Assembly: GCA_944392525.1 (NCBI GenBank)
Contig: CALXXB010000038.1
Span: forward strand, 1-15,080
From: an uncultured Clostridia bacterium
Lineage (GTDB): Bacteria > Bacillota_A > Clostridia > TANB77 > CAG-508
Direction of reading: 5' to 3'
Length of the DNA: 15,080 nucleotides
Shown one piece after another: positions 1,159-13,864 of the stretch (position 1 is its first letter; every line of letters starts with the position of its first letter). The position numbers were made by a program, and so were the translations under genes. A model generated the notes under the pieces. The model was not told the DNA's origin and did no database searches. It saw only the letters and a program-made list of their open reading frames with translations.

Positions 1159-1184
1159 AAAGTAGGGAATACCTACTTTTTATA
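1159..1184 (+). terminator. Intrinsic terminator after DUF6512-like gene
   Basis: AAAGTAGG (1159-1166) pairs with CCTACTTT (1172-1179) around a 5-base loop and runs into a T-rich tail. It starts one base after the stop codon. Confidence 0.8.
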
Positions 1185-1213
1185 TTTTAATTGGAAAAAT
1201 TTTCAAAAAACTA

Positions 1214-1242
1214 TTGACAAAATTTGTAAATAAAATTATAAT
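1214..1242 (+). promoter_or_regulatory. SigA-type promoter upstream of the inverted-repeat unit and yraN-like gene
   Basis: TTGACA at 1214-1219 and TATAAT at 1237-1242 with a 17-base spacer match the consensus exactly. Transcription would start near 1249, about 250 bases ahead of the yraN-like reading frame, so the transcript would carry a long leader containing the whole 27-bp inverted repeat. Confidence 0.75.
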
Positions 1243-1315
1243 TAGGACAGTTTTTAAATCAAAATATTTATTTTCTTTATATTTTATCGAAGATTTCAAA
1301 CGAAAAAAAAAGAAT

Positions 1316-1486
1316 ATATTTAGATATCTGAGGCCATTATAAGCCCCTAATTTTGATCCCTAAATTAAATGAATTATTCCCTATATTTTTAGTAAATTTA
1401 TTTCAATCTTTAAAAGTCCACAAATATTTTATAATAAAGAAAGAACCAAATATAAATATTTATAATGGCCTCAGATATCTAAATAT
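1316..1486. repeat. 27-bp perfect inverted repeat enclosing a 171-bp unit (MITE-like or long leader hairpin)
   Basis: Bases 1316-1342 are the exact reverse complement of 1460-1486; in RNA the pairing extends a few bases outward with G-U pairs. The 117 bases between the arms are AT-rich and carry no recognisable gene, and a reading frame open through here (from 1353) has no ribosome binding site. The right arm ends only five bases before the AAAGGAGG of the yraN-like gene. A size near 170 bp with perfect terminal repeats fits a miniature inverted-repeat element, but no target-site duplication beyond a possible TA is distinguishable. It could equally be a regulatory leader structure, since it lies downstream of a consensus promoter. 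Together with the flanking terminator and promoter this accounts for the gene-free stretch 1159-1484. Confidence 0.65.
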
Positions 1487-1499
1487 GTTTAAAGGAGGA

Positions 1500-1865
1500 G
1501 TGAGAATAGTAGTTAGCAAAGGAAGAAGAAAAATAGCAGAAAATGTGGCTTGTAAATATCTGAAAGATAATAATTATATAATAGTAGAAAAAAACTTTGA
1601 ATGTAAAAAAGAAATAGTTGACTTAATTGCTTATGATGAACTAACAAAAGAATTAGTTTTTATTAAATTAAAAATTTATATAATTCCAAAAGAGTTAAAA
1701 GAAAAAGAAATTGTTAAAAATCAAGAAATTTTAAGATCTATAGCTAAATACTATAATTATGAATATGGTATTTATGATATACCTGTTAGATTTGATATAA
1801 TAAAAATACTTTTAAATAATAGCATATGTAAGATAAAACATATTAAAAGGATTTTTAATAAATAA
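1500..1865 (+). CDS. Diverged YraN/UPF0102 family protein (predicted endonuclease fold, probably inactive)
   Basis: From the GTG at 1500 the product is 121 residues, the usual YraN size, and keeps the family order: KIAENVACKYLKDNNY (11-26) resembles the N-terminal helix normally written GExxAxxYLxxxGY, followed by VEKNF and a VDLIA / LVFIKLK block (residues 40-58). In the family this core reads GEIDLIA...VFVEVK and forms a PD-(D/E)xK nuclease-like site. Here D41 and K58 remain, but the first Glu is replaced by Ile39 and the ExK Glu by Lys56, so catalysis is doubtful. The start is unclear: AAAGGAGG (1491-1498) is only 1 base from GTG 1500; the ATG at 1485 lies before that site; the well-spaced in-frame codon at 1506 is ATA. 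It may be a decaying gene or use an unusual start. It converges on dgt. Confidence 0.6.
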   Translation: MRIVVSKGRRKIAENVACKYLKDNNYIIVEKNFECKKEIVDLIAYDELTKELVFIKLKIYIIPKELKEKEIVKNQEILRSIAKYYNYEYGIYDIPVRFDIIKILLNNSICKIKHIKRIFNK

Positions 1866-5233: not shown

Positions 5234-5263
5234 TTGACAAATAAATGTGAATTATGGTAAACT
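5234..5263 (+). promoter_or_regulatory. Promoter of the structured leader and methyltransferase operon
   Basis: TTGACA (5234-5239) and TAAACT (5258-5263) with an 18-base spacer; the -10 is preceded by TATGG, a context repeated at the promoter near 14145. Transcription would start near 5270, which gives a leader of about 147 bases. Confidence 0.65.
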
Positions 5264-5269
5264 AAAAAT

Positions 5270-5346
5270 GTATTAGGAGTGTACTTAAGGGAGAAATCCT
5301 GAGCAGTACAGAGTAGAAAATTTCTACTTACACTAGAAAAGTAAGT
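5270..5346 (+). promoter_or_regulatory. Structured 5' leader, candidate riboswitch or attenuator of unrecognised class
   Basis: Several helices can form ahead of the terminator: 5278-5283 with 5329-5334 (AGTGTA/TACACT) closing a domain; inside it 5288-5291 with 5297-5300 and a strong hairpin 5312-5318/5322-5328 (AGTAGAA/TTCTACT). Alternatives compete: 5281-5285 with 5305-5309, 5325-5331 with 5341-5347 (TACTTAC/GTAAGTA), and 5340-5345 with 5352-5357, the last of which uses bases of the terminator's 5' arm. This is the layout of a switchable leader. I could not match it to the T-box, SAM, TPP, purine, lysine, glycine, cobalamin, c-di-GMP, THF, preQ1, fluoride or guanidine classes. No leader peptide longer than two codons starts at the first ATG (5269). 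Confidence 0.5.
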
Positions 5347-5396
5347 AAAGCCTTACTTGAGGAGTCTTAAACAAGATTTTTCAAGTGAGGCTTTTT
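5347..5396 (+). terminator. Leader terminator upstream of the methyltransferase gene
   Basis: Bases 5347-5368 pair with 5373-5394 as an almost continuous helix (a few G-T pairs, 4-base AAAC loop), and the helix runs into TTTTT at 5392-5396. It lies between the promoter and the first gene of its own operon, so transcripts must read through it for expression, which is the hallmark of attenuation control. Confidence 0.75.
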
Positions 5397-5416
5397 AGAT
5401 TTTAGGGGGGAATATT

Positions 5417-6202
5417 ATGCAAGAAGTAAAGAGCTTACTAGAAAATTATTATTCAGGCCATGAGGAAAATGAAAGATTGGTAAAGGACAAAGCACATAAG
5501 GTGGAGTTTTTAACCACAACTAGATATATTAATAAATATATAAAGCCAGGAGATAAAATATTAGAAGTAGGTGCAGGAACAGGAAGGTATTCGCTTCATT
5601 ATGCTAGTAAAGGTTATGAAGTAGAAGCAGTGGAACTAATTAAATCTAACATAGAAGAATTTGAAAAGCATATTGATAATAATATGAAAATTAAAATACA
5701 TGAAGGAAATGCTTTAGACTTAAGTATGTATAAAGATAATTCATTTGATATAACATTACTTTTAGGCCCAATTTACCATTTGTTTAATATGGAGGATAAA
5801 AAGAAAGCAATAGAAGAAGCAATTAGAGTAACAAAGCCACATGGAAAAATCTTTATTGCTTATATAACAAATGATATAGTTATAATAACTTATGGGCTAA
5901 AAAAAGGTAATTTGTTAAAACTAAAAGATGTCTGTGATGAAAATTATAGAGTTAAAGAAATGCCGGAAGAAATATTTTCAGTAAATTATGTTGAAGAATT
6001 TGAAAATATGATGGAAAAATTTCCTGTAAAATTATTAAATGAAGTAGGAGTAGATGGGTTATCTGAAAGTTTGGAAGAATATATAAATAATTTATCAGAT
6101 GAAGAATATGCAGTGTGGTTAGATTACCATTTTAAGAACTGTGAACGAAAGGATATAATGGGTTATAGTAGTCATGTAGTTTATATATGTGAAAAAAACT
6201 AA
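5417..6202 (+). CDS. Class I SAM-dependent methyltransferase
   Basis: A 261-residue cytosolic enzyme of the UbiE/Methyltransf_11 type. Motif I is EVGAGTGRY (50-58), preceded by the family's usual PGDKILE strand; the acidic residue binding the SAM ribose is in VEAVEL (72-77); GNALDL (about 98-103) is motif II-like; LLGPIYHLF (about 115-123) occupies the motif IV position and resembles the LLGPLYHL seen in many uncharacterised Firmicutes methyltransferases. The substrate is unknown and could be a small molecule. The ATG at 5417 follows AGGGGGG (5404-5410). The gene is first in a three-gene operon with two acetyltransferases and sits directly behind the leader terminator, so its expression is likely conditional. 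Confidence 0.85.
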   Translation: MQEVKSLLENYYSGHEENERLVKDKAHKVEFLTTTRYINKYIKPGDKILEVGAGTGRYSLHYASKGYEVEAVELIKSNIEEFEKHIDNNMKIKIHEGNALDLSMYKDNSFDITLLLGPIYHLFNMEDKKKAIEEAIRVTKPHGKIFIAYITNDIVIITYGLKKGNLLKLKDVCDENYRVKEMPEEIFSVNYVEEFENMMEKFPVKLLNEVGVDGLSESLEEYINNLSDEEYAVWLDYHFKNCERKDIMGYSSHVVYICEKN

Positions 6203-6262: not shown

Positions 6263-6760
6263 ATGATTAGATATTATGAAAAAGGAGATATAGAACAAAT
6301 AGCAAAAGTAATAGATGAAGATTGGAAGATAGCTTATAAAAGAATTATTGATGATGACTATCTAAAAAATTTAAATTATAAAGATAGAGAAAAGAGAATA
6401 AGAGACAAATATCAAAAAGAAAAAGCAATAGTATATGATGATAATGGAATTATAAAAGGATTTTGTAGATTTGGAGAAAATAGAGATGATAAGAAAGAAT
6501 TAGCAGAGATATATGCTTTATATGTTAAAAACGATGAAAGAAGAACAGGAATAGGAGAAAAACTTATAATTAAAGCTAAAGAGATTTTAAAGGAAAGAGG
6601 ATATGAAGAAGCAATTCTTTGGCGCTTGGAAGAAAATAAAAATGCAAGAAATTTTTATGAAAAAGTTGGAGGTAAATTATATAAAGAGAGGTTGTTTAAA
6701 ATTGGAGATATATATTATAATGAAGTAAGTTATAAATATAATTTAAAGGGGGATTTATAA
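6263..6760 (+). CDS. GNAT family N-acetyltransferase
   Basis: A 165-residue GNAT-fold acyl-CoA transferase. The acetyl-CoA pyrophosphate loop (motif A) is ERRTGIGEKL (92-101) after the strand AEIYALYV (81-88); motif B is ENKNARNFYEKVGG (124-137), with the usual NxxxxxFYExxG form. Typical substrates for this group are small amines or protein N-termini; this one cannot be assigned. The start is supported by AAAGGGGAG (6248-6256), 6 bases before the ATG. The 60-base gap after the methyltransferase has no terminator. Its stop codon overlaps the next start as TAATG, giving translational coupling. Confidence 0.87.
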   Translation: MIRYYEKGDIEQIAKVIDEDWKIAYKRIIDDDYLKNLNYKDREKRIRDKYQKEKAIVYDDNGIIKGFCRFGENRDDKKELAEIYALYVKNDERRTGIGEKLIIKAKEILKERGYEEAILWRLEENKNARNFYEKVGGKLYKERLFKIGDIYYNEVSYKYNLKGDL

Positions 6761-7326
6761 TGAAGTATTTTAAGAAGTTAGTAGGAGAACATATATACTT
6801 ATCACCAATAAGGGTAGAAGATGTGGAAAAGTATACTGAATGGATGAATGATTTTGAAACAACAGATTATACAGGAAGAAGTAGTCAAATATATACAGTG
6901 GAAAATGAAAGAAAATGGCTAGAAGGTAGTATAGAGGATAAATCAAATCAGATATTTGGAATAGTAGTTTTAGAAAATGATAAACTTATAGGAAATTGTG
7001 GAATTCATAAAATAGATTCAAAAAATAGGAATGCAACACTTGGAATATTTATAGGAGATAAAGAAGAACGAAATAAAGGATATGGAACAGAAACAATAAA
7101 ACTATTATTAGATTATGGATTTAACTATTTAAACTTACATGAAATACAATTAGATGTAATGTCTTTTAACGAAAGAGCAATTAGATGTTATGAGAAGGCA
7201 GGATTTAAACAATATGGAAGAAGAAGAGAATCTGAATATGTAAATGGTAAGTATTATGATAGAATAAGTATGGATATCTTAAAGTCTGAATTTAAAGAAA
7301 GCTATATAAAAAATAAAAACATATAA
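6760..7326 (+). CDS. GNAT family N-acetyltransferase, RimJ/RimL-like
   Basis: A 188-residue acetyltransferase of the RimJ/RimL type (Acetyltransf_3), a group that includes ribosomal-protein N-acetyltransferases and small-molecule detoxifying enzymes. Typical features are the opening VGEHIYLSPIRVEDVEKYTEWMND form (8-31), the central IGNCGIHKID strand pair (77-86), the CoA loop EERNKGYGTE (102-111) and the C-terminal FNERAIRCYEKAGF (136-149), which matches the family's NxxAIRxYEKxGF. The start overlaps the preceding stop by one base and is preceded by AAAGGGGGA. Last gene of the methyltransferase operon; it ends in a strong terminator. Whether it modifies a protein, a tRNA-related substrate or an antibiotic is not known. 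Confidence 0.88.
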   Translation: MKYFKKLVGEHIYLSPIRVEDVEKYTEWMNDFETTDYTGRSSQIYTVENERKWLEGSIEDKSNQIFGIVVLENDKLIGNCGIHKIDSKNRNATLGIFIGDKEERNKGYGTETIKLLLDYGFNYLNLHEIQLDVMSFNERAIRCYEKAGFKQYGRRRESEYVNGKYYDRISMDILKSEFKESYIKNKNI

Positions 7327-13713: not shown

Positions 13714-13787
13714 GCAGGTATAGTTTAATGGTAAAATAAAACCTTGCCAAGGTTTAGTTGCGGGTTCAATTCCCACTACCTGCTCCA
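13714..13787 (+). tRNA. tRNA-Gly (anticodon GCC)
   Basis: A 74-base cloverleaf: acceptor GCAGGTA/TACCTGC, anticodon arm AAACC-TTGCCAA-GGTTT with GCC at 13746-13748, T arm with GGTTCAATTCC, discriminator T and an encoded CCA. The D stem is AT-rich (GTTT/AAAT). GCC reads GGC and GGT glycine codons. Three bases separate it from the next tRNA. Confidence 0.95.
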
Positions 13788-13790
13788 TAT

Positions 13791-13864
13791 GGCGAGTTAG
13801 CCAAGCGGTAAGGCACGAGTCTGCAAAACTCTGATGATCGGTTCGACTCCGATACTCGCCTCCA
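13791..13864 (+). tRNA. tRNA-Cys (anticodon GCA)
   Basis: A 74-base cloverleaf: acceptor GGCGAGT/ACTCGCC, D arm GCC...GGC, anticodon loop CTGCAAA with GCA at 13823-13825, T arm TCGG-TTCGACT-CCGA, discriminator T and encoded CCA. The outer pair of the anticodon stem (C13816-T13832) is a mismatch; the other four pairs are intact. Same transcript as tRNA-Gly. Confidence 0.95.

Follow-up and report, generated by a model that had tools for sequence, protein, structure and literature searches.

By the sequence tests applied here, the leader upstream of a methyltransferase-acetyltransferase operon in an uncultured Clostridia bacterium is a real riboswitch. We are highly confident that it belongs to a reduced branch of the (p)ppGpp/PRPP (ykkC subtype-2) riboswitches. 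It probably acts as a reduced (p)ppGpp-type transcriptional ON riboswitch, with (p)ppGpp as the presumed ligand, and as a sister of the RNAs that precede Clostridia ABC-exporter genes. A first-pass annotation of the DNA analysed (the window, 15,080 nucleotides in full) had proposed a switch-like leader with exclusive aptamer and terminator folds before this operon, and the sequence tests support that description.

The leader is real and conserved and spans about 5270-5398, starting just 3' of a promoter, with a T-run at 5392-5396. The features of the locus, all on the plus strand, are as follows.

5234-5263, plus strand: sigma-70-type promoter TTGACA-18-TAAACT, TG-extended (TG before the second hexamer), 10/12 match
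5273-5278, plus strand: P1 5' strand TTAGGA, partner 5365-5370; 98% of cells paired, two-sided changes in 4/6 pairs (41 relatives)
5279, plus strand: J1-2 G, present in 41/41; by homology, the counterpart in role of G10 of the Clostridiales ppGpp riboswitch and G6 of the PRPP aptamer
5280-5310, plus strand: P2 hairpin, with P2 5280-5285:5305-5310, internal loop UA 5286-5287 / GAGC 5301-5304 and P2b 5288-5290:5298-5300
5311-5329, plus strand: P3 hairpin 5311-5317:5323-5329; 93.2% of cells paired, two-sided changes in 6/7 pairs
5329-5333, plus strand: J3-4 UACAC; at 5330-5333, A in 41/41, C in 40/41, A in 41/41 and C in 41/41
5339-5358, plus strand: P4 hairpin 5339-5345:5352-5358, its 3' strand being terminator left arm; at least 5 pairs in 128/140 leaders
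5347-5396, plus strand: intrinsic terminator, 20-pair stem 5347-5394 followed by the T-run (terminator scan)
5361-5364, plus strand: J4-1 GGAG; G, G and A each in 41/41, the final G in 40/41
5365-5370, plus strand: P1 3' strand TCTTAA, also terminator left arm (covariation, folds)
5417-6202, plus strand: class I methyltransferase, operon gene 1 (Pfam Methyltransf_11/25)
6263-6760, plus strand: GNAT acetyltransferase (Pfam Acetyltransf_1)
6760-7326, plus strand: GNAT acetyltransferase (Pfam Acetyltransf_3)

The promoter and the strong terminator before gene 1, both proposed earlier, are present. For the promoter, however, shuffled sequence yields equally many promoter-like sites. The same elements occur upstream of the leader in relatives, counted in 139/140 leaders without a shuffled control and leniently for AT-rich DNA. 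The terminator scan returned 3 overlapping sites against 0.3 expected. The whole leader folds at -49.5 kcal/mol (z -6.3), a value equalled by 0/200 shuffles, and most of this predicted energy is supplied by the terminator. Elsewhere in the window, 13714-13861 holds two adjacent tRNA genes.

Relatives of the leader were collected from 80 loci, obtained by one genome-contig scan with an alignment of 44 methyltransferases. Among the first 22 of these loci, the leader stood directly before the methyltransferase in 9, and these nine leaders together with the window's own formed the covariance model R1. In the window, R1 matched this leader alone, plus an antisense echo of its terminator. On the same 80 loci it found extra copies before other genes, one in L033 and two back-to-back in L008, as well as three weaker short forms (L011, L016 and L029). 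The divergent L008 pair lies at 1172-1317 (minus) and 1408-1564 (plus); an ABC transporter ATPase gene follows one copy, whereas behind the other come a kinase-like gene, two GNATs and the methyltransferase. Across the clostridial order of L001, R1 matched 114 of 287 sampled genomes at 139 places (E <= 0.01). Of these places 130 were retrieved, the nine absent ones being two at contig ends and seven weak matches, and 140 leaders (E <= 0.001), including loci found earlier, were aligned. Two weak R1 matches are adjacent at G194:C1:82859-83051, and in L240 a second aptamer-like 5' half follows about 50 nt after the first; both arrangements are possible tandem riboswitches. A blastn search yielded no plasmid record, and no viral contig contained the one exact pattern used.

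The conserved fold of the leader is a predicted four-way junction, P1-P4, supported by covariation. From 143 RNAs, 44 with less than 80% identity were picked, and three were dropped for their long loop inserts (L008 twice, L180); the remaining 41, with L011, L016 and L029 among them, were aligned by MAFFT without structure. The compensatory changes on which the earlier aptamer claim hinged did appear among relatives from the covariance search: P1, P2, P2b and P3 together had 92.7% of cells paired and two-sided changes in 20/23 pairs (41 relatives). None of 500 shuffles reached the observed values, and slid helices were only 34-49% paired. P2 was paired in 99.6% of cells with two-sided changes in 6/6 pairs, while P2b, the weakest helix, was paired in 72.3% with such changes in 4/4 (41 relatives). 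The P1 strands are re-paired between lineages as UUAAGA:UCUUAA, UAGUGA:UCACUA, ACAAGA:UCUUGU and AUUAGA:UCUAAU. Its six pairs form in 206, 203, 205, 206, 189 and 162 of 206 RNAs, with AU, UA, GC, CG, GU and UG all occurring; these counts are biased towards P1, since for 66 RNAs the strands were taken from the termini of matches to a second model, R2, which expects P1. The test on 41 relatives is free of that bias. P4 strands likewise vary by lineage (GUAAG/CUUGC, AGCAG/UUGCU, AUAGG/CCUAU, CGAGU/UCUCG). Exchanging P4 halves between leaders weakened P4 merely from -5.5 to -4.3 kcal/mol, a weak control because many leaders have common P4 strands. J4-1 reads GGAG-U (hyphen, start of P1) in 139/140 leaders and GGAU-U in one.

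This fold retains part of the first-pass structure and replaces the rest. The hairpin placed at 5312-5318/5322-5328 is real and corresponds to P3, and the pairing 5340-5345/5352-5357 is P4. P2 and the closing P1, whose partner for the 5' end lies in the terminator left arm, were absent from that model. Its own closing helix, 5278-5283/5329-5334, showed not a single two-sided change in the 41 relatives, did not exceed the shuffles, and was discarded; its bases belong to P1, J1-2, P2 and J3-4 of the fold described here. The alternative pairing of TACTTAC (5325-5331) with 5341-5347 proved lineage-limited: it is common where the P4 5' strand is GURAG (73/87), and is otherwise rare (8/53).

The 3' strands of P1 and P4 form part of the terminator left arm, so that junction and terminator are mutually exclusive. 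At least six of the eight bases GGAGUCUU lie within the terminator left arm in 138 of 140 folded leaders. In the window, the terminator state is predicted at -46.6 kcal/mol and the junction state at -22.1 kcal/mol. When the window RNA is ended at 5370, its unconstrained best fold (-25.5 kcal/mol) has P1, P2, P3 and P4; for the 140 leaders ended likewise, the unconstrained fold has P1 in 135 and P2 in only 118. The junction is thus able to form first and would be displaced unless held, which is ON riboswitch logic: with the P1 and P4 3' strands in the terminator arm, a ligand that holds the junction would turn the genes ON. The exclusion is seen in the sequence, and we infer the switching itself. 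In the ppGpp riboswitch, the ligand stabilises P1 against the terminator, according to PMC10687018.

In our proposed mechanism, P2, P3, P4 and then P1 would assemble the four-way junction as the RNA emerges. The ligand, (p)ppGpp or a guanine nucleotide much like it, would form a pair with C5331 of J3-4, and G5279, G5303, C5304 and G5364 would grip it, as residue identity with solved and probed relatives suggests. The ligand would stabilise P1 and keep the P1 and P4 3' strands from the terminator, and the methyltransferase-GNAT-GNAT operon would be transcribed. Without ligand, the stronger terminator would displace the junction and transcription would end near 5396. The predicted outcome is that detoxification- or resistance-like enzymes and exporters are coupled to the alarmone of starvation and slow growth.

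The kinship with the ykkC superfamily emerged from R2, an aptamer-only model built without ykkC members. At E <= 0.01, R2 matched 10/398 genomes phylum-wide and 20/391 in the class, 10/193 in the order of Candidatus Onthousia (L016) and 3/296 in its class, and 7/208 and 22/194 in two further clades. Outside the order of L001, 66 R2 places were classed, a set that omits class-search matches in that order and one place without a locus (in the 22/194 clade). They comprise 44 RNAs reduced like that of the window, 14 full-size, 6 canonical and 2 others, where full-size denotes GGUUCC, an A-rich P4 loop and J4-1 ending GAG-UC, and canonical denotes AGG-U. Reduced and full-size RNAs share the J4-1 ending GAG-UC, and both have ABC, MFS and GNAT targets. 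The canonical RNAs get modest R2 scores (31-40 bits). L226 and L228 lie before purE, L263 before purL, L259 before purC and L260 before a near-identical gene, while L229 is located 398 nt upstream of acetolactate synthase. L228 adjoins an Rfam guanine aptamer, a tandem reported for PRPP riboswitches in PMC5912903. Two further ykkC-like RNAs, L227:1501-1614 and L230:1501-1614, have J4-1 CGGAAAG-UC or CGGCAAG-UC before a 396-aa protein and fit neither the AGG-U nor the GAG-UC group; the protein behind the L227 RNA had no Pfam match at 1e-8.

The earlier label "unclassified" stands in so far as Rfam 15 gives the leader no match at the gathering threshold. Relaxing the search to E up to 10 added only families that score far below their cutoffs, such as MIR5643 and rli56, and these were judged chance. 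As a description of ancestry the label falls short, the leader being very probably a reduced relative of the ykkC subtype-2 riboswitches. The Rfam Guanidine-I model (RF00442) scores L226, L228, L229 and the full-size L273 at 38-45 bits (L273 at 42) against a cutoff of 63, and gives no score for the window or the reduced L258 and L271. Since PRPP-/ppGpp-type RNAs themselves fall below this cutoff, gathering-threshold scans with Rfam 15 miss such RNAs, and the silence of Rfam on the window is weak evidence against kinship. Guanidine-I has the superfamily scaffold in common with the leader, but its GAG is followed by A, where subtype 2 and the leader (C5304) have a pyrimidine, and according to PMC6031431 it lacks a closing helix like that of the leader.

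Among known systems, the closest likeness is to the ppGpp riboswitch (ykkC 2a; oral taxon 876, natA), which has the same P1-P4 junction, P2 with UA/GAGC, J3-4 UACAC with the guanine-reading C, J4-1 ending G-A-G before P1, P1 and P4 shared with the terminator, and ON logic. Unlike it, the reduced leaders have neither GGUUCC nor a long P2b, their J4-1 is 2 nt shorter, the P4 A-tract is not fixed, and their targets are GNAT, methyltransferase, MFS, kinase-like and ABC genes. The PRPP riboswitch (ykkC 2b) follows the same P1/P2/P3 plan with UACAC, and R2 finds L226, L228, L259, L260 and L263 of this kind. It differs in AGG-U at J4-1 where the leaders have GGAG-U, in the published S-turn G in P4, and in its purine genes.

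The ligand pocket was compared with residues that PMC10687018 names for one ppGpp riboswitch, that from Clostridiales bacterium oral taxon 876. All 20 residues checked match in six of the full-size RNAs and 17-19 in the remaining eight, against 13-16 in the canonical AGG-U RNAs. The window keeps G10, A68, C69, A70, G48, C49 and G98 (5279, 5330, 5331, 5332, 5303, 5304 and 5364, respectively), and these seven columns are conserved in 40-41/41 of the unanchored alignment. Counts on the 140 leaders and on the 44 reduced RNAs elsewhere point the same way, though in part by construction, because the residues were located through motifs. By homology of role, C5331 would correspond to the C (C69/C75) that pairs with the guanine of ppGpp. 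Two features of 2a are missing: the P2b GGUUCC occurs in 0/140 leaders and 0/44 reduced RNAs elsewhere (the latter partly defined by its absence), and the reduced J4-1 is GGAG instead of GGACGAG, without A94 and C95 of the probed riboswitch. The pocket is consequently not identical to the probed one, and the leader, though its working would resemble that of ppGpp riboswitches, is not filed as a strict subtype 2a member. In 2a a purine tract of P4 docks on P2b. The P4 loop here is AAAG or AAAAG in 60/140 leaders, including the window (UAAAGC), so some docking on P2b is conceivable; the AAAAG form is absent in 41/44 reduced RNAs elsewhere.

Changing the S-turn G96 converts the PRPP aptamer to a ppGpp aptamer and abolishes the S-turn, as PMC6031431 shows. 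No S-turn was recognised by eye in the P4 helices of the reduced RNAs, whose P4 is too divergent for position-by-position alignment, and the full-size sequences inspected have no G at PRPP position 96. Nine of the 14 full-size RNAs precede an ABC exporter ATPase resembling the one behind reduced leaders. PMC12373219 reports a roughly tenfold preference for pppGpp over ppGpp in the "Clostridiales bacterium natA aptamer", and this aptamer appears to be of the same kind as the full-size RNAs here.

The first genes behind 137 leaders comprise 72 GNAT, 18 methyltransferase, 16 ABC exporter ATPase, 10 AAA_18 kinase-like and 8 MFS genes, the remainder being S66 peptidase (3), M20 (2), S51 (2) and six others or unnamed; for three of the 140 leaders the contig stops too soon for a first gene to be seen. 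Names derive from Pfam on cluster representatives, the 48-member GNAT cluster being named from four of its ten subclusters and the singleton L194 lying outside the scan. No pur genes occur among the cluster names of the 137 first genes (one 93-aa protein lay outside the scan). Behind the 44 reduced RNAs elsewhere, assignment by similarity gave GNAT 19, MFS 7, ABC 3, S66 1 and methyltransferase 1, with 13 not assigned, two of which are a glutamine-tRNA ligase and a dCTP-deaminase-like protein. The former belongs to L252, whose reduced aptamer lies 52 nt upstream of the ligase gene, which would be a fitting target for a signal of amino-acid starvation. S66 peptidases recur as targets (L126, L144, L145 and L270); the microcin C immunity protein MccF is a member of this family. 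No description of a reduced ppGpp-type riboswitch before such genes was found in the literature searched, which included parts of PMC9788692, PMC7736828, PMC11611296, PMC5912903, PMC7266159, PMC6031431, PMC10687018, PMC12373219, PMC8969151 and PMC11109978; the ykkC 2a/2c primary papers were covered only through these texts, and an earlier mention is possible.

These targets are not amino-acid biosynthesis genes, which counts against the ppGpp reading. The same type of ykkC ON riboswitch could instead read another ligand, either a different guanine nucleotide or some compound, toxic or drug-like, of which the GNAT, methyltransferase and exporter genes dispose. A J4-1 two nucleotides shorter, at the element contacting the ligand phosphate, the loss of GGUUCC and a resistance-like gene set would fit such a change, and ykkC superfamily members have repeatedly changed ligand according to PMC5912903 and PMC7266159. 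However, all seven checked pocket residues are retained, and related ABC, MFS and GNAT genes are controlled by full-size RNAs that match the ppGpp riboswitch; we regard a different ligand as unlikely, if a serious contender. Similarly unlikely is a separate ykkC class. Its pocket, with the shorter J4-1 and no GGUUCC, would have given up (p)ppGpp for a different signal of antibiotic or toxin stress, one that bears a guanine or is phosphorylated, and in Clostridia and Bacilli the reduced RNAs would serve a resistance-like regulon as its dedicated sensors.

The remaining explanations dispense with a ykkC aptamer. Drug-resistance-like genes are often preceded by leader-peptide attenuators, and a terminator is present here, but ribosome-mediated attenuation, which the first-pass annotation had allowed for, is very improbable: an AUG before GGAG occurs in 71/140 leaders at scattered positions, and the conserved core extends across the whole structure. 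A conserved upstream ORF was rejected, as the 140 leaders share no start codon at a conserved place. The terminator's large share of the folding energy would equally suit a plain intergenic terminator or sRNA with the rest of the leader meaningless, yet P1, P2 and P3 covary, an invariant core lies outside the terminator and many unrelated genes lie downstream, leaving this reading very little probability. A guanidine-IV or Gd4v riboswitch would share GNAT and transporter (MATE) targets and a terminator-linked ON design. PMC9788692 describes it as a pair of hairpins connected by a pseudoknot that involves the terminator loop, whereas the leader is a four-way junction closed by P1; compared by published description only, this identity was rejected on topology and is hardly credible.

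If the preferred reading of a reduced (p)ppGpp-type riboswitch is true, alarmone-type riboswitches extend well past amino-acid genes. In one clostridial order roughly two-fifths of the genomes sampled carry the leader, mostly before acetyltransferases, methyltransferases, exporters and kinase-like proteins, and the leader family marks RNAs overlooked by current Rfam models. The ykkC aptamer would then be able to lose peripheral elements yet keep its pocket, down to about 75 nucleotides (the short leaders L223 and L255 measure 75-79 nt), and these bacteria would possess a direct RNA path from growth arrest to detoxification or resistance-like functions.
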